IMG/VR virus record: IMGVR_UViG_3300028925_005152 | Span: 1-64,000 of that record | DNA: 64,000 bases | Origin: a virus | Strand: one strand, 5' to 3' | Shown: positions 9,499 through 26,354 of the stretch, in pieces | Layout: every line of letters starts with the position of its first letter | Numbering within the stretch: the stretch's first letter is position 1 | The notes under the pieces: model-generated | What the model was told of the DNA's origin: nothing | Databases searched by the model: none | Seen by the model: only the letters and a program-made list of their open reading frames with translations | Translations under genes and position numbers: made by a program

Positions 9499-10164
9499 TT
9501 ATTTTCGTTTTTTCTTGGCAAGTTCATTAGAAATCCATTGTTTTCCTACAGGATTTGACACTTTTGCCATTGCAAGTGACTTAATTTGCTTGTAAACAGG
9601 GGTCATTACATCTTCTTCTGTATCATTATTGTCAACAACTACGAAATTGCGTTTAAAATATTGACTAAATTTACCAATATTAGACTGCACCTCTCTCCAA
9701 GACTTAATGACCATAGACTCTGGTACACTACGAGCTCGTGCTTTGTTTCTTGCAAGTGCAGTATCCAGAGAAGTATTGACATAAATCATATGTACATCGT
9801 AACCAAGTTGTTTTAACTTTGTGGCTTCATCTGAAATCTTTGCAAAGTTTTTCCCTGTTCCATCAATAATTAAACCAAGTCTACCGTTTACATAATTTTT
9901 ACCTTGAATTCCAGTAATTTTTTTTGCTTTGATACGAACATCGTCACGAGCATCGGATTCTTTATCAGGCATTTTTAAAGACAATTGAGCATCTTTCAAA
10001 AATTTCTCAAATGCAGGATCAGAGTTGACAGTCTTCAGACCTAGACCGCCAGTAGTTTGTCTTACAACATAAGACTTACCACTGCCCGGCCCACCGGCAA
10101 GAAAGAATGCTTTTAAAATATTAGGGTCATAGACACCCTCTTGCAATTCGTTAAATGAAATCAT
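9499..10164 (-). CDS. P-loop kinase-like NTPase (zeta-toxin/polynucleotide-kinase-like)
   Basis: The protein has 221 residues. A Walker A motif, FLAGGPGSGKSYVV, lies near residues 21-34. A later segment, LGLIIDGTGKN, and a short Arg-containing helix (ARNKARAR) form the lid pattern of small kinases. The fold resembles zeta-toxin and polynucleotide-kinase-type phosphotransferases; the substrate is unknown. The C-terminus is basic (KKKRK). A strong terminator follows. Confidence 0.7.
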   Translation of the reverse strand: MISFNELQEGVYDPNILKAFFLAGGPGSGKSYVVRQTTGGLGLKTVNSDPAFEKFLKDAQLSLKMPDKESDARDDVRIKAKKITGIQGKNYVNGRLGLIIDGTGKNFAKISDEATKLKQLGYDVHMIYVNTSLDTALARNKARARSVPESMVIKSWREVQSNIGKFSQYFKRNFVVVDNNDTEEDVMTPVYKQIKSLAMAKVSNPVGKQWISNELAKKKRK

Positions 10165-14046: not shown

Positions 14047-14604
14047 ATGGCTAAAAGTAAATATATTCAAAGTGTTATAGATGCAACGAAAGGACGACCA
14101 AAATCTACTGATTGGTATCGTGAAAAGATCAAAGAGTTTGGAGAGCCAGGCGCCATGGATTTAATACGAGATGGAAAGCGTAACAATAGACCTTTCTATG
14201 GACGATTGAATATGTTCTTCTATGACCCAAAATTCAAAAAGAAGTTACCTTACTACGATACATTTCCTTTGGTGTTACCAATAGAAAAATATCCAGATGG
14301 GTTTCTAGGTATTAACTTACACTATCTGCCTATGAAGTTAAGACTTCAGTTGTTAGATAGATTAGTTGATTATAGTAACAATACTAAGTTTGATGAAAGT
14401 ACAAGACTTGCAGTTGATTATAGTAAACTTAAAAAGATACAAATACTTAAACCAACACTTAAACGATATCTTGCTGGACAAGTTAAGTCACAGTTCCGTA
14501 GGATAGATGCAGATGAGTTTACAGTTGCAACACTGTTACCTGTGCAGAGATTTAAGAAAGCATCAGCCTCAGAGGTTTATGCAGACAGTAGGAAAATGAT
14601 CTAA
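14047..14604 (+). CDS. Conserved T4-like virion assembly protein, possibly gp2 (DNA end protector)
   Basis: The protein has 185 residues. It has a basic N-terminus (STDWYREKIKEF) and a highly patterned core: FFYDPKFKKKLPYYDTFPLV, then DGFLGINLHYLP. This core is conserved next to gp4 in marine T4-like phages. Some relatives are annotated as DNA end protector gp2, which in T4 maps next to gene 4. I cannot confirm that by sequence alone. A TATAAATA string ends five bases before the ATG but is also the coding end of gp4. Confidence 0.5.
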   Translation: MAKSKYIQSVIDATKGRPKSTDWYREKIKEFGEPGAMDLIRDGKRNNRPFYGRLNMFFYDPKFKKKLPYYDTFPLVLPIEKYPDGFLGINLHYLPMKLRLQLLDRLVDYSNNTKFDESTRLAVDYSKLKKIQILKPTLKRYLAGQVKSQFRRIDADEFTVATLLPVQRFKKASASEVYADSRKMI

Positions 14605-15326
14605 TGGCAGTCAACTTTAAAGGACTTCGAGATGCAGTAGCATTTGGTGCATTAAATGAATTTCTTGCAACTTTCAATAGTGGTGATGGTTATTCAAGAC
14701 CAAACCGCTATGAAGTTGTGATGAAACCACCCTCTGGTACTTTGGGAAGTAATCAAGTAAGTTTATTTTCTCAACTTATGGGAGAAAAACACACAAACGA
14801 CAGTAAAGCTGTTTCTTTAAGATGTGAAGCAATAGCATTTCCCGGCCGTAACATGGACACCACACCAGATTCAAATCTGTATGGCCCTGAAAGAGAACTT
14901 GTAACTGGTTATAGTTTCCCAGACATTACTGCTACATTTCAATGTTCTTCTGATATGAGAGAAAAGTTATACTTTGAAACATGGCAAGGACTTACATTTA
15001 ACCAACAAGACTTTTCTCTGGGTTACTATGATGATTATACTGGTGAACTTGATATCGTTGCTTTAGACGAACAAGACAACAGAAGATATGGTGTCAGACT
15101 AAGAGAGTGTTTTCCTAAAGCTATTACTGAACAACCACTTTCATATGCAAATGGTGCTAGTTATCAAACTGTATCAATTACTTTTGCTTATCGTTTTTGG
15201 GAAAATATGGAAGATGAAGCAAATCCAGTACACAAACCTCTATTAAACAGAGTAGCAGAAAATGCTGTAAGTACTGTATCAAGGTCTATTACTGCAAACT
15301 TACCAGCAGTACTACGCCGACTATAA
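14604..15326 (+). CDS. 54: Tail-tube-fold protein, baseplate tube initiator (gp54-like)
   Basis: The protein has 240 residues. It shows a tail-tube-fold pattern: NRYEVVMKPPSG, LRCEAIAFPGRNMDT, YSFPDITATFQCS and ITFAYRFWENM, as in gp19/gp54-type proteins. In marine T4-like phages this gene between gp4 and gp26 is usually annotated gp54, the protein that nucleates the tube on gp48. The start overlaps the previous stop as TAATG. A second tube paralogue function cannot be excluded. Confidence 0.6.
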   Translation: MAVNFKGLRDAVAFGALNEFLATFNSGDGYSRPNRYEVVMKPPSGTLGSNQVSLFSQLMGEKHTNDSKAVSLRCEAIAFPGRNMDTTPDSNLYGPERELVTGYSFPDITATFQCSSDMREKLYFETWQGLTFNQQDFSLGYYDDYTGELDIVALDEQDNRRYGVRLRECFPKAITEQPLSYANGASYQTVSITFAYRFWENMEDEANPVHKPLLNRVAENAVSTVSRSITANLPAVLRRL

Positions 15327-15351: not shown

Positions 15352-16059
15352 ATGGCATTACCAAAACTCAATACCCCAACCTATGAATTGGAATTACCCT
15401 CAACAGGTGAGATTTTAAAATACAGACCATTTTTAGTAAAAGAACAAAAACTATTACTGATAGCTCAAGAATCTGGTGAAGAAAAACAAATTGCAAACGC
15501 AATGGGAGAATTAGTTAACTCATGTACCTTTGGTAAAGTTAATGCAAAGTCTGCTCCCATGTTTGATATTGAATATTTATTTTTAAGAATTAGAGGAAAA
15601 TCTGTTGGAGAAAAGGTCAAATTAAATTTGATATGTCCAGACGATGGTAAAACAACAGTTCCATATGAACTAAATCTAGAAGATGTTGAATGTCAAGTAC
15701 AAGATGACCATTCAAATGAAATTCAAATTAACGAAGACATTAAGATAGTTTTTAGATACCCACTCCTAAATGATTTGCAAAATGTAAAAGCAAGTGCTGG
15801 AGATTCTGAAAAAACATTTCATTTTTTAGAATGTTGTATTGATTCAATTCACAGCGGTGATGATGTTTTTCAAAGAATAGACATAAAAGATAAGGAAATT
15901 TCAGATTTTATTGAACAATTTACAAACGAACAGTTTGAAAAGATAACACAGTTTTTTAACACTATGCCCAAATTGCGTCATGTAGTTAAAGTGACTAATC
16001 CAAAAACAAAGAAAAAGAATGAGATTCTTTTGGAGGGTTTGGAAAGTTTTTTAGGGTAG
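15352..16059 (+). CDS. 26: Baseplate hub/tail assembly protein (gp26-like), frameshift donor
   Basis: The protein has 235 residues in the zero frame; T4 gp26 is similar in size (208). LPSTGEILKYRPFLVKEQKLLL and a central C-rich turn (NLICPDDGKTT) fit the gp26 proteins of T4-like phages. The last codons before the stop contain a T TTTTTA-type slippery run followed by a hairpin, and the -1 frame stays open for another 62 codons with a gp51-like sequence. This is the arrangement of tail-assembly chaperone pairs, which lie just ahead of the tape measure gene, as here. Confidence 0.75.
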   Translation: MALPKLNTPTYELELPSTGEILKYRPFLVKEQKLLLIAQESGEEKQIANAMGELVNSCTFGKVNAKSAPMFDIEYLFLRIRGKSVGEKVKLNLICPDDGKTTVPYELNLEDVECQVQDDHSNEIQINEDIKIVFRYPLLNDLQNVKASAGDSEKTFHFLECCIDSIHSGDDVFQRIDIKDKEISDFIEQFTNEQFEKITQFFNTMPKLRHVVKVTNPKTKKKNEILLEGLESFLG

Positions 16060-16080
16060 GGCTATCCCACGATAGCCTAC
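16047..16080 (+). promoter_or_regulatory. Predicted -1 ribosomal frameshift site
   Basis: The slippery heptamer T-TTT-TTA occupies 16047-16053 in the correct phase of the gp26-like frame, two codons before its stop. A hairpin (16056-16066 with 16071-16080, ten pairs and one bulged G, loop of four) begins two bases later and contains the zero-frame stop. A -1 slip enters the frame of the gp51-like segment. Confidence 0.65.
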
Positions 16081-16241
16081 ATAATTACTATAAAACTAAC
16101 TTTGCACTGATGCAACACCATAAATATAGTTTAACAGAATTAGATAATATGATGCCGTGGGAAAGAGAAATATACCTTAATTTGTTGATGCAACATATTG
16201 AGGAAGAAAACAAGAGAATGAAACAAGAGCAGAGAGGATAA
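16053..16241 (+). CDS. gp51-like segment, probably made only as a -1 frameshift extension
   Basis: This frame is open from the slippery site to the TAA at 16239-16241 and encodes 62 residues, so the fused protein would have about 296. The segment LTELDNMMPWEREIYLNLL followed by a charged helix resembles the short gp51 (hub assembly catalyst) or chaperone-tail proteins near tape measure genes. An internal ATG at 16110 would give 43 residues, but no Shine-Dalgarno precedes it. That favours frameshift expression. Confidence 0.6.
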   Translation, partial: RVGLSHDSLHNYYKTNFALMQHHKYSLTELDNMMPWEREIYLNLLMQHIEEENKRMKQEQRG

Positions 16242-16246
16242 GTGTG

Positions 16247-16567
16247 ATGACTAAAGAAGTAAAAAGTCACCATCCAGCAGATACAAATGGGGATGGTAAA
16301 GTTTCAGATGAAGAACATGCAATGTTCCTAGAGTTCAAGAGAAAAGAACTTGAGGATAATGATGCAATGAGAGATGCTCAAAGGCAAATGACATGGTTTG
16401 CTTTATTTGGATTGTTACTATATCCATTCGCAGTAGTACTTGCATCATTGATAGGATTAGATGAAGCACAAAAAACACTAGGTAGTATGGCTCCAACATA
16501 TTTTGTTGCTGTTGCTGGTATAGTTGCTGCGTTCTTTGGAACACAAGCATACGCTAAAAAGAAATAA
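16247..16567 (+). CDS. Small membrane protein with an EF-hand-like loop
   Basis: The protein has 106 residues from the ATG at 16247 (GAGG ribosome site nine bases upstream). Near residue 14 it has a canonical EF-hand loop, DTNGDGKVSDEE, with all the usual oxygen ligands. Two hydrophobic spans follow (about 50-72 and 82-102). The gene sits between the tail chaperone pair and the tape measure. A calcium-binding membrane protein here could act in tail or lysis function; this is only inference. Confidence 0.7.
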   Translation: MTKEVKSHHPADTNGDGKVSDEEHAMFLEFKRKELEDNDAMRDAQRQMTWFALFGLLLYPFAVVLASLIGLDEAQKTLGSMAPTYFVAVAGIVAAFFGTQAYAKKK

Positions 16568-16578
16568 GGTAAATCTCA

Positions 16579-18231
16579 ATGGCAGAAAAAAACATTCAAG
16601 ATTTAATTAATGTAATGACGAAGGAGAATAAAATTTCTGATGCTAAGCAAGCACTTGATTTCCAACTGCTAGTTGAAGAATTAAATGAATTGGAAAAACA
16701 AAGTGCTGAATTTAAACCAGTGTTTACTAAGGCCGCAAAGCTTGAAAAAGATGCACTAGACATTAAAATACAGGAATCAAAAATAAATCTGGAAAAACTT
16801 AATATCGCAAAAACAGCAAAAAGTGATGCTGTTACAGCTATAAATGACCAAAAACAAGTGCTTGAAGCCATGAAGGAAAGCATTGAAGCTCAAGGTGGTA
16901 TTGCTGAAGATAACAAAAAATATCAAGAGGCATCAAAAGATTTGCAGATACAAGAAATTGATGCTAGATTAAATTCAGGTGGACTTGCGAAAGGCAAAGA
17001 AGAAGAACTGAAAAAAGAACGTGACCAACTCAACAAAAATAACCTAACTTTACTTGAGAAAATATCAAGCGGTATTATGGGTTTGAAAGAGAACGCAAAA
17101 GAAAAACTTAAAGGTGCTGGTAAGGGTTTTATGGCATTAGTTAAAGGAACACTTTTTGCTGGAGCTTTGATTGCTTTTGGACTTTTCGTACAAAGCCCTA
17201 TGTTTAAAACTATTATTGATAATTTAGATAAAATATTAATTGGATTGGGTGTTGTGGTAGGTCTGTTTGCAATATTTAAAATTATAAAGTTTATAGTAGC
17301 TATTACAACAGCGCTTAAGGCCATAAAAGCGTTCTATATTGCTCAACAGATTGCTCTGACAAAGAAATACTTACCTGCTTTGAGTGGGATGGTATCAAGC
17401 ATGTTGGCTACTGGAAAAACCATGGCGCGTACAGCAGCACAATTTCTTATGATGAAGATTAAAGCTTTAGTAGCTTTTCTACCTGCTGTGACTGCGATGG
17501 CTGCATCCTTTGGAGCCATGATAATTCCACTTTTACCGATTATAGCAATTGCAGCTGGAATTGCTGTAGTTATCTTGGCTCTTAAATCTGCATTTACTGA
17601 TTTTCAAAAGACTCTGGAAGAAACTGGTAGTGTTGGTGAAGCACTTAAAGTCGGTATAGCTAAATTTATGGGATTTATTCTAGGATTTATACCTGATTTG
17701 GTTCTCAAACTAGTCGGTTTTGTTGCTGGTTTATTTGGATTTGATGACTTTAAAGCAAAAGTTGGAAAACTTGATCCTATTCAATTTATAGCTGATGGTA
17801 TAAAAAGTCTGTTTGATGCGATAGGAAACTTCTTCTCTGATATATTTAACTTTGACTACAAAAGTTTTCTGAAGGGAATTCCCGGCGTTGGAAGCTTAAT
17901 GAGTGTCTTTGGAATGGGCGATGATTCTAAAGATCAACCACTTGAAGGAAGGGCAGAAGGTGGCTCAGTTGGAACAGGACAACCATATGTAGTTGGTGAA
18001 AGAGGTCAAGAGTTATTTGTTCCTAACCAGCCAGGCCAGATAGTTAACGCACAAAGAACCGCAGAAATGATGAAAGGTGGTAGTGGTGGTAATGGTGGTG
18101 GTAGTACATCAATTGTTGTGGCTCCAAACAATGTCACTTCATCTACCAATACAACTAACAATTCATCTACTGTGTCTTATATTGGTAATCCAGACCCAAT
18201 CTTCCAAAGAGCATCATCTTACGCTATATAA
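16579..18231 (+). CDS. Tail tape-measure-like protein (gp29 position)
   Basis: The protein has 550 residues. The first 200 are long charged coiled-coil segments, then several hydrophobic helices (about 190-345), then a Gly-rich C-terminus. The element GGSVGTGQPYVVGERGQELF followed by VPNQPGQIV is the signature end of many tape measure proteins. The position directly after the chaperone pair supports this. It is short for a tape measure. A strong hairpin follows the gene. Confidence 0.75.
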   Translation: MAEKNIQDLINVMTKENKISDAKQALDFQLLVEELNELEKQSAEFKPVFTKAAKLEKDALDIKIQESKINLEKLNIAKTAKSDAVTAINDQKQVLEAMKESIEAQGGIAEDNKKYQEASKDLQIQEIDARLNSGGLAKGKEEELKKERDQLNKNNLTLLEKISSGIMGLKENAKEKLKGAGKGFMALVKGTLFAGALIAFGLFVQSPMFKTIIDNLDKILIGLGVVVGLFAIFKIIKFIVAITTALKAIKAFYIAQQIALTKKYLPALSGMVSSMLATGKTMARTAAQFLMMKIKALVAFLPAVTAMAASFGAMIIPLLPIIAIAAGIAVVILALKSAFTDFQKTLEETGSVGEALKVGIAKFMGFILGFIPDLVLKLVGFVAGLFGFDDFKAKVGKLDPIQFIADGIKSLFDAIGNFFSDIFNFDYKSFLKGIPGVGSLMSVFGMGDDSKDQPLEGRAEGGSVGTGQPYVVGERGQELFVPNQPGQIVNAQRTAEMMKGGSGGNGGGSTSIVVAPNNVTSSTNTTNNSSTVSYIGNPDPIFQRASSYAI

Positions 18232-21481: not shown

Positions 21482-22042
21482 TCATTTTAGATTATATAAA
21501 TCATTTAGTACATGTTGTATAGGGTCAATTTCATTCAACATTTCCAGAGCAGCTGATGTTGTTTCTTCTACTCTGCGAGTCCAACCCCGACCAAAAGTTT
21601 CAAAGGTATTTAACCTTTCATAATACTTTTGTCTTCTGGATTGATATTCTGTAATCGTTTCTTTCAGACCAACACGTTCTACATAAGAATTGACTATGCG
21701 TATAGTATTAGGCCCGATTGCACCATCAGAGGTTGCACCCACAAGTGTTTGTAGATACTTCGCAGCCCGACTAGTTCCAGCATTAACACCAAAATCAAAC
21801 ACACACAAATCAAGACCATTTGGTAAGTTATCACCTTTGACCCTTCCCCAATAATTCTTTCGATAGATAGGAGCAACATCTTCAACCGTTAGGTCTTTCA
21901 TTTCTTTTTTACCACCCCAAGCATCATATACTCTTTTAGTAACACCAAGATTAGTTTGCCCGCCGGGATCCTTTGGGTGATTTACATATCCACCTTCGTG
22001 GTGCAGAATCATGTCCAGACATTGTTGATAGTTTTTAATCAT
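21482..22042 (-). CDS. Endolysin, glycosyl hydrolase 108 family (N-acetylmuramidase)
   Basis: The protein has 186 residues. The N-terminal motif HHEGGYVNHPKDPGGQTNLG is typical of GH108, with E16 the expected catalytic acid. A C-terminal peptidoglycan-binding-like part follows (DFGVNAGTSRAAKYLQ, then DGAIGPNT). It should cleave host murein at lysis. No signal peptide is visible, so a holin is expected. Its ATG overlaps the phoH stop by four bases. Confidence 0.9.
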   Translation of the reverse strand: MIKNYQQCLDMILHHEGGYVNHPKDPGGQTNLGVTKRVYDAWGGKKEMKDLTVEDVAPIYRKNYWGRVKGDNLPNGLDLCVFDFGVNAGTSRAAKYLQTLVGATSDGAIGPNTIRIVNSYVERVGLKETITEYQSRRQKYYERLNTFETFGRGWTRRVEETTSAALEMLNEIDPIQHVLNDLYNLK

Positions 22043-22743
22043 ACTATTCCTAGCCCTAGTTTTGTTTTTTGGATAAGGTAGTTACGCACAAATCCTGAAC
22101 GAACAATATCTCCGATATTAAATTCTGTACAATTGAACTCATTCATATTTTGCAATATTTGTAAAAAGTCCATTAGTCCATTTTTCTCATTGTTTTTAGT
22201 TAAGTCAGATTGTGCAAAATCTCCACAGAAGAAAATCTTAGAATTTTGACCTACCCTAGTAATGATGGTATCGAGTTCATGAAAGTTTAGATTCTGACAT
22301 TCATCAACAATGATAATACTATTGTCGAAAGTCAAACCTCTAAGAAAGGATGTTGATAGGAAGAAAAAACTTCCTTGTGCTTTCAAACGATCATACAGCA
22401 TACTAAATGCTTGTTCGTTTGGTTGTTCAAACATGAATTGCATCATGTTAGAGTATGGTACTTGATAAAGTGCAGCCTTGTCTTCCTCATCGCCCGGCAA
22501 GAATCCAATCTCTCTTGTAGGTATAAGTGATCGTACTACAATAACTCTATCGTATGGAGTTTCAGGATTCAATACTTGTTGCAATGCGAGGTATAGAGAA
22601 ACGAAAGTCTTTCCTGTACCAGCACAACCGAATAGAAATTGATTCTTATCGTCTTTCCAAGAGTCAAATACTGATTGTTGACTGTCTGTAACAGGAGTAA
22701 TTTTAGTTAGTTGACTGAATGTGATATCTTTTTTATTTGCCAT
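22039..22743 (-). CDS. phoH: PhoH-like P-loop ATPase
   Basis: The protein has 234 residues from the ATG at 22743, which has an AAGGA ribosome site. Walker A is GCAGTGKT at 39-46, Walker B is IIIVDECQN, and the switch FCGDFAQSDL follows, all typical of the PhoH core. PhoH is very common in marine phages; its role is not settled, though RNA-related functions have been proposed. It is followed by the endolysin with a four-base overlap. A large inverted repeat lies 21 bases upstream of the ATG. Confidence 0.93.
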   Translation of the reverse strand: MANKKDITFSQLTKITPVTDSQQSVFDSWKDDKNQFLFGCAGTGKTFVSLYLALQQVLNPETPYDRVIVVRSLIPTREIGFLPGDEEDKAALYQVPYSNMMQFMFEQPNEQAFSMLYDRLKAQGSFFFLSTSFLRGLTFDNSIIIVDECQNLNFHELDTIITRVGQNSKIFFCGDFAQSDLTKNNEKNGLMDFLQILQNMNEFNCTEFNIGDIVRSGFVRNYLIQKTKLGLGIV

Positions 22744-22763
22744 TACCAATCCTTTAAGAGAGT

Positions 22764-22804
22764 GCAACACACTGTGTCAATGCGTAGAAGACACAGTGTG
22801 TTGC
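22764..22804. repeat. Perfect 15-bp inverted repeat upstream of phoH
   Basis: GCAACACACTGTGTC (22764-22778) is the exact reverse complement of 22790-22804; the loop is 11 bases. There is no T-tract on either side, so it is not a standard terminator. It lies in the leader of phoH. Confidence 0.85.
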
Positions 22805-25193: not shown

Positions 25194-26354
25194 TTAAGAC
25201 CTTAAATATCGAATCATTATTTCTGCAAGAGCTTTAAACCACCTTTCATCGTTACCTCTGGTGGTTTCTGCTGCAACTCCGATTCTAACTCCAGAGGTTT
25301 CAATAAAACCGCGAGTATCGTTAGGAACACCATTTTTATTTACAGTAATAGATTTTTGTTCTAGTAAATCTGCAAATTCACGACCACTATACTTTTCTTT
25401 ATTCAAGTTAATAGTAAACATATGAGATTGTGTTCCACCAGATACTATTTCTACATCAGCATCTATGAATGTCTGTGCCATTATATTTGCATTAGCTATT
25501 ACACGTTTAGTATATAACTGAAAGTCTGGTTGTAATGCTTCGTAGAAACATTGTGCTTTAGCGGCAATGATGTGCATCAGAGGCCCACCTTGAGTGCCGG
25601 GAAATACTGCACTGTTAATTTTATTACTGTATTCTTTATCGTTCCACAAAATCATACCACCGCGAGGGCCTCGTAAAGTTTTGTGTGTGGTGGTGGTTGC
25701 AACATCTGCATAAGGAAATGGATTAGGATATGATTTACCAGCAATGAGTCCAGAGTAGTGACTGATATCTGCAAGTAAGATTGCACCTACCGAGTCTGCC
25801 ATTTTTCTGAATCGTTTCCAATCAATCACTCGACTATATGCACTTGCTCCTGCAATAATCATTTTAGGATTATTATCTAATACTAGTTTTTCTGCTTCAT
25901 CATAATCAATAATTCCATCAGCATCAACGCCATAACTCTTAGTGACGAACCACTTACCACTTATGTTAACCTTCGCACCATGTGATAAGTGACCACCACT
26001 AGACAAGTCCATACTAACAATTAAATCGCCGGGCGTTAAGAATGTTTTGAATACCGCAAGATTTGCATTTGCACCACTGTGAGGCTGAACATTTGCAAAG
26101 TTACAACCAAATAATTTAGTTGCGTATTCAATGGCAAGGTCTTCTACCTTATCAACTTCATCGCAACCATTGTAGTATCTTTTGCCGGGCAAACCTTCTG
26201 CATACTTATTGGTTAAGATACTACCACACAATTCCATTACTTCTGGACTAGTGAAGTTCTCACTTGCGATTAGTTCTACCGTATTAAATTGACGAGCAGC
26301 CTCAGCAGTTACTATTTGTTCAATGCGGGGGTCAATAAACTTCTGCACATTCAC
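25194..26354 (-). CDS. glyA: Serine hydroxymethyltransferase
   Basis: The protein has 386 residues; the bacterial enzyme has about 417, so the phage form is slightly short. ELIASENFTSPEVM near 27-40, GLPGKRYYNGC, the histidine of HSGANAN, DISHYSG near 196-202, and TTTTHKTLRGPRGG with the PLP lysine at 225 identify it. It converts serine and tetrahydrofolate to glycine and methylene-tetrahydrofolate, feeding thymidylate synthesis and glycine. SAR11 bacteria are glycine-dependent, so the gene would be useful there; that is inference. Confidence 0.95.
   Translation of the reverse strand: MNVQKFIDPRIEQIVTAEAARQFNTVELIASENFTSPEVMELCGSILTNKYAEGLPGKRYYNGCDEVDKVEDLAIEYATKLFGCNFANVQPHSGANANLAVFKTFLTPGDLIVSMDLSSGGHLSHGAKVNISGKWFVTKSYGVDADGIIDYDEAEKLVLDNNPKMIIAGASAYSRVIDWKRFRKMADSVGAILLADISHYSGLIAGKSYPNPFPYADVATTTTHKTLRGPRGGMILWNDKEYSNKINSAVFPGTQGGPLMHIIAAKAQCFYEALQPDFQLYTKRVIANANIMAQTFIDADVEIVSGGTQSHMFTINLNKEKYSGREFADLLEQKSITVNKNGVPNDTRGFIETSGVRIGVAAETTRGNDERWFKALAEIMIRYLRS

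Follow-up and report, generated by a model that had tools for sequence, protein, structure and literature searches.

A probable -1 frameshift site joining gp26-like and gp51-like reading frames in a T4-like marine virus

The gp26/gp51 locus and its neighbours

The window analysed here is a stretch of 64,000 nucleotides, positions 1 to 64,000 of the IMG/VR virus record IMGVR_UViG_3300028925_005152. On its plus strand, a gp26-like gene (15352..16059) encodes a zero-frame product of 235 aa that profile matches to PF12322 (E 4.4e-66) and phrog_150 (E 5.5e-71) place in the gp26 family. The 3' end of this gene reads ...GAA AGT TTT TTA GGG TAG, in which a slippery heptamer, T_TTT_TTA (16047..16053, plus strand), sits in the phase required for a tandem -1 slip, one codon (GGG) ahead of the zero-frame TAG stop (16057..16059, plus strand). 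The -1 frame is open from AGG at 16053 to the TAA at 16239-16241, and this gp51 segment of 62 codons plus stop (16053..16241, plus strand), translated as RVGLSHDSLHNYYKTNFALMQHHKYSLTELDNMMPWEREIYLNLLMQHIEEENKRMKQEQRG, matches phrog_634, 'baseplate hub assembly catalyst' (E 2.7e-31), as well as the C-terminal part of phrog_150 (E 2.9e-8). A shift at the heptamer would join 234 residues to these 62 in a fusion of 296 residues, with the predicted junction peptide ...SFL-RVGLSHDSLHNYYK. A sequence-only reading of the window had pointed to this in-phase heptamer near the gp26 stop, to the 62-codon open frame with its gp51-like content and to a fusion of about 296 residues, all of which agree with the window sequence and the phrog_634 match.

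The locus lies between a gp19-like tail tube protein gene directly upstream (14604..15326, plus strand; phrog_45 E 4.5e-36) and a probable tape measure protein gene (16579..18231, plus strand; 550 aa), which was identified by local similarity to tape measure PHROGs, weak even at its best (E 2.6e-6), and by a position like that in HTVC008M and Cr30. The gp51 stop and the latter gene are 337 bases apart, and between them lies a single small ORF (16244-16567; 107 aa) that has two hydrophobic segments and an EF-hand-like loop, DTNGDGKVSDEEH (PF13202 E 0.0056, below the cut-off); in several relatives, too, a small ORF occupies this position. That a 107-aa ORF parts gp26/gp51 from the tape measure gene, itself weakly identified, is evidence against reading the locus as one for tail assembly chaperones. 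Elsewhere in the window, minus-strand ORFs at 25194-26354, 22039-22770 and 9499-10164 resemble by eye a serine hydroxymethyltransferase, PhoH and a P-loop kinase, respectively, and are possible auxiliary metabolic genes.

An AlphaFold2 model of the window gp26 (pLDDT 88) suggests a chaperone-like fold. Its top structural match is the HK97 tail assembly chaperone gp13 (2ob9), at a Z of 7.8 over 82 residues that falls just below 8, in the range where the tool warns of chance; the second, 3fgx, which is described as a phage tail chaperone (PMC9603447), has a Z of 7.5, also below 8, and the third-ranked match falls to 4.4. The gp26 family is longer (235 aa) than the lambda-type chaperones, and its resemblance to HK97 gp13 is limited to the N-terminal part, roughly residues 1-90. 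With Foldseek alone, the HK97 chaperone came sixth, without significance, and a profile search of solved structures with gp26 found no meaningful relative. The likeness of the model to the HK97 chaperone fold is suggestive, not proof.

Conservation of the heptamer and of the -1 frame

TTTTTTA occurs 51 times in the AT-rich 64-kb record, which led us to reject the heptamer by itself as evidence; a further in-phase T_TTT_TTA lies inside the window gp26 at 15822. It is conservation, rather than occurrence alone, that sets the frameshift site beyond chance. We compared 113 loci with a complete gp26 end, drawn from IMG/VR contigs, isolates, distant relatives and viral contigs among bacterial assemblies; searches of viral contigs with the distant gp26s of Cr30, V09 and RHph_I9 yielded only five loci. 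An in-phase T_TTT_TTN near the gp26 stop, together with an open -1 frame, was found in 111 of the 113, across IMG/VR contigs, cyanophages, SAR11 and methylotroph phages, KVP40-like phages and phages of Caulobacter, Rhizobium and Sinorhizobium, and exactly one codon separates heptamer and stop in 105 of these 111. The earlier suggestion that the heptamer be sought in related phages was thus answered in favour of the site. The two loci without it are those of the Ackermannviridae phage SH19 and Vibrio phage D509. In Pelagibacter phage Mosig (L083, 1803-2534) the zero frame extends 8 codons beyond the heptamer, giving a greater overlap of gp26 and the shifted product than in other relatives.

Codon usage at the site was compared in 103 distinct sequences, a set selected for having the site and the full -1 region, and therefore the unbiased conservation figure is the 111/113 given above. 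The Phe codon at the slip site is TTT in all 103 sequences, against 875 of 1090 elsewhere in gp26 (20 per cent TTC), an excess with p about 1.5e-10 when computed as if the sequences were independent, which related sequences are not. No other in-phase heptamer position in gp26 is common to more than 11/103 sequences, and the copy at 15822 is present in 2/103. The abundance of TTTTTTA in the record would suit a heptamer that AT-rich codon usage produced by chance where gp26 ends in a conserved Phe-Leu/Phe, with the -1 frame a decayed gene, but the confinement of conservation to one codon, the invariable TTT and the purifying selection on the -1 frame described below contradict this idea already, and it is almost certainly wrong.

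The annotation of gp51 as a CDS of its own in the GenBank records of P-SSM2, S-PM2, HTVC008M and Mosig would fit a separate short protein begun at its own ATG (16110 in the window), the overlap with gp26 being mere gene packing, as would the position of the first ATG 20 or 21 codons past the slip site in 74 of the 103 sequences. The annotated starts vary between records, however, and some records leave the frame unannotated. As the sequence-only reading had it, no Shine-Dalgarno sequence was found ahead of the window ATG at 16110. A start so preceded occurs within the first 30 codons of the -1 segment in only three of the 103 relatives, V09 and its relative L098 among them, and is lacking in the other 100; the start of gp26 itself has such a sequence in 88/103. 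In S-H34 there is no Met at all at the place of the internal ATG (FAFKQYH).

The codons ahead of that ATG bear on the same alternative. In the stretch from the heptamer to the first ATG, pN/pS is 0.36 in the -1 frame (0.27 among close relatives) against 1.4 and 1.5 in the other two frames (1.4-1.9 overall), and stops interrupt the -1 frame in 0 of 97 sequences versus 95/97 and 94/97 for the others. Judged by these substitution and stop-codon patterns, purifying selection acts on the stretch as read in the -1 frame and in neither of the other two. A start at 16110, which the earlier reading had named as an outcome that would overturn it, is at odds with codons that are conserved as -1 frame protein before any ATG is reached, and a separate gp51 would leave the invariant heptamer unexplained. 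We consider such a protein very unlikely and favour entry into the gp51 frame from gp26.

The downstream hairpin

Just past the heptamer, at 16056..16080 (plus strand), folding predicts a hairpin whose perfect 7-bp core (16060-16066/16071-16077) closes a 4-nt loop. Drawn with one 1-nt bulge, it becomes the 10-bp hairpin that had been noticed from the letters, at -12.3 kcal/mol (z -2.3), and it starts 2-6 nt past the heptamer according to how the bulge is drawn. Two of the stem pairs join third positions of -1 frame codons, Gly3-Ser3 and Leu3-Asp/Glu3, and because they are third-codon positions the encoded protein puts little constraint on whether they pair. Both pairs covary (z 5.2 and 8.0, respectively) and are the best two among 66 wobble-wobble pairs, one of them showing all four Watson-Crick types; examples are GGA CTA TCT CAC GAT AGT, GGA CTC TCT CAC GAG AGT and GGA CTT TCT CAC GAA AGT. 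On the gp26 tree, we counted five compensatory double changes for Gly3-Ser3 and seven for Leu3-Asp/Glu3, the top two of 55 wobble pairs, albeit by the small margin that separates them from the next pair, with four.

The complete stem is found in 23 of the 47 sequences with TTTTTTA, in 1/8 with TTTTTTG and in 0/42 with TTTTTTC or TTTTTTT. A universal downstream hairpin was accordingly rejected, the stem being clade-limited and almost confined to TTTTTTA sequences. P-SSM2 and S-PM2 have longer, different stems nearby, and the sequence downstream of the site tends to fold a little more strongly than gp26 controls do (mean z -1.33 vs -0.22). The chances seem to us even that, in one marine T4-like clade, the shift is tuned by a short hairpin coupled to TTTTTTA, whose pairing is preserved at synonymous positions of the gp51 frame, and that TTTTTTC clades rely on other structures or on no structure, so that different signals maintain one chaperone ratio.

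Homopolymer runs can cause slippage of RNA polymerase, and a fusion made in this way on the T6 run would call for no ribosomal slip, although a run of six is short for it. Three features speak against polymerase slippage, namely that the run keeps the codon phase which tandem slippage on a heptamer requires, that the seventh base of the heptamer is variable (A 52, C 40, T 10, G 9; n = 111) and that the downstream stem covaries. We regard it as extremely unlikely. A -1 slip by the ribosome remains our preferred explanation. The central claim of the sequence-only reading, a programmed -1 frameshift joining gp26 and gp51, accordingly stands as to site, phase, conservation, open frame and the lack of an own start, the fused product itself being predicted.

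Short and long tail assembly chaperones in T4-like phages

With high probability, then, the window holds the tail assembly chaperone locus of a T4-like marine myovirus, in which a short TAC-N and a long gp26-gp51 protein would arise by a hairpin-helped -1 ribosomal slip on T_TTT_TTA. Most ribosomes would terminate at the gp26 TAG and yield the 235-aa short chaperone, while a minority, helped by the hairpin just downstream, would slip by -1 and read 62 further codons, yielding the 296-aa fusion (TAC-NC) with the gp51 segment as its TAC-C. By analogy with lambda gpG/gpGT, a few long copies would recruit tube subunits and many short copies would coat the tape measure protein; the tube would form around that protein and the chaperones would then leave. 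We infer both this role in assembly and a low slip efficiency: one gene very probably gives two tail-assembly helper proteins through the slip of a small share of ribosomes.

The T-even phages appear to hold the same pair in another form. The gp51 of T2 and of 44RR is a single ORF of 248-249 aa (249 aa in T2) whose first ~200 residues match PF12322 (E 4.3e-55 in T2, 3e-48 in 44RR), so that a full gp26-like domain is joined in frame to a C-terminal segment matching the -1 segment of the window. Whereas the window has T_TTT_TTA, the end of gp26 lacks a slippery site in T2 (GAG TTC TTT) and CC31 (GAA TTC TTC), where gene 25 follows gp26; T2 has lost the slip site. The T-evens therefore carry homologous short and long forms as two genes, 26 and 51, with the long form of T2 encoded by a gene of its own where that of the window would come from the predicted frameshift. 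In Campylobacter phage CJLB-13 (L103, 2437-3177), gp26-like and gp51-like parts share one reading frame, with no shift. Four Ackermannviridae loci (L094, 3703-3744; L128, 2215-2256; L129, 2266-2307; L130, 2263-2304) are without T_TTT_TTN and keep GA[AG] ATT TTC AT[TC] TAA, which might perhaps serve a weaker one-tRNA slip; their -1 frame is open and includes a conserved MPWHLD segment, and the records either leave the downstream ORF unannotated or call it hypothetical.

The slip site of lambda is G_GGA_AAG, in contrast to the T_TTT_TTA of the window. Gene 26 and gene 51 are said, in the abstract of a 2022 study, to be the chaperone genes of T4-like phages. As in lambda gpG/gpGT and the conserved tail frameshifts covered by the survey of Xu, Hendrix and Duda 2004, a short and a long chaperone would come from one gene by a -1 slip just ahead of the tape measure gene, and gp26 is most likely the short form (TAC-N) and gp26-gp51 the long form (TAC-NC) of this lambda G/GT arrangement. 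The chaperone locus of Vandenendeviridae and Andersonviridae (phage Adele, PMC12846349) likewise has a conserved -1 poly-T frameshift at the end of TAC-N that annotations overlooked, although its motif is GTTTTT and these are other phage families than that of the window.

The hint in the sequence-only reading that a gp26/gp51 frameshift might be new does not hold. According to citations in PMC10885494 and PMC12846349, the T4-like chaperone genes had already been identified by Vladimirov, Gautam and Davidson (Virology 2022, doi 10.1016/j.virol.2021.11.003); the former paper (PRFect) refers to them for T4-like phages in which a short and a fused long chaperone gene take the place of frameshifting, and the latter for -1 poly-T signals in the TAC-N genes of T4-like phages. 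On these accounts, their phages share chaperone genes and poly-T signals with the window, whose genome differs in being that of an unannotated marine virus. The window is a further probable case of the published T4-like frameshift, and the covarying stem, which may be absent from that description, is a small addition.

In the list of Leiman et al. 2010 (PMC3004832), gp26 and gp51 appear as chaperones of hub assembly, and the function of the essential gp51 is given as unknown; in T4, gp51 is required, yet forms no part of the finished particle (PMC3004832). The gp51 of cyanophages has only about one-fifth the length of that of other T4-like phages (PMC3037559), and would be so short because the part that it lacks is gp26, to which a frameshift would join it. 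In the T4-like records that we inspected, gp26 is labelled a 'baseplate hub subunit', and gp51 is either omitted or entered by itself as a 'baseplate hub assembly catalyst'; the two ORFs are not joined in any of the annotated GenBank regions. Collectively, the comparisons presented here would correct a common annotation error, in that they make gp26 and gp51, as far as sequences can tell, two forms of one tail assembly chaperone.
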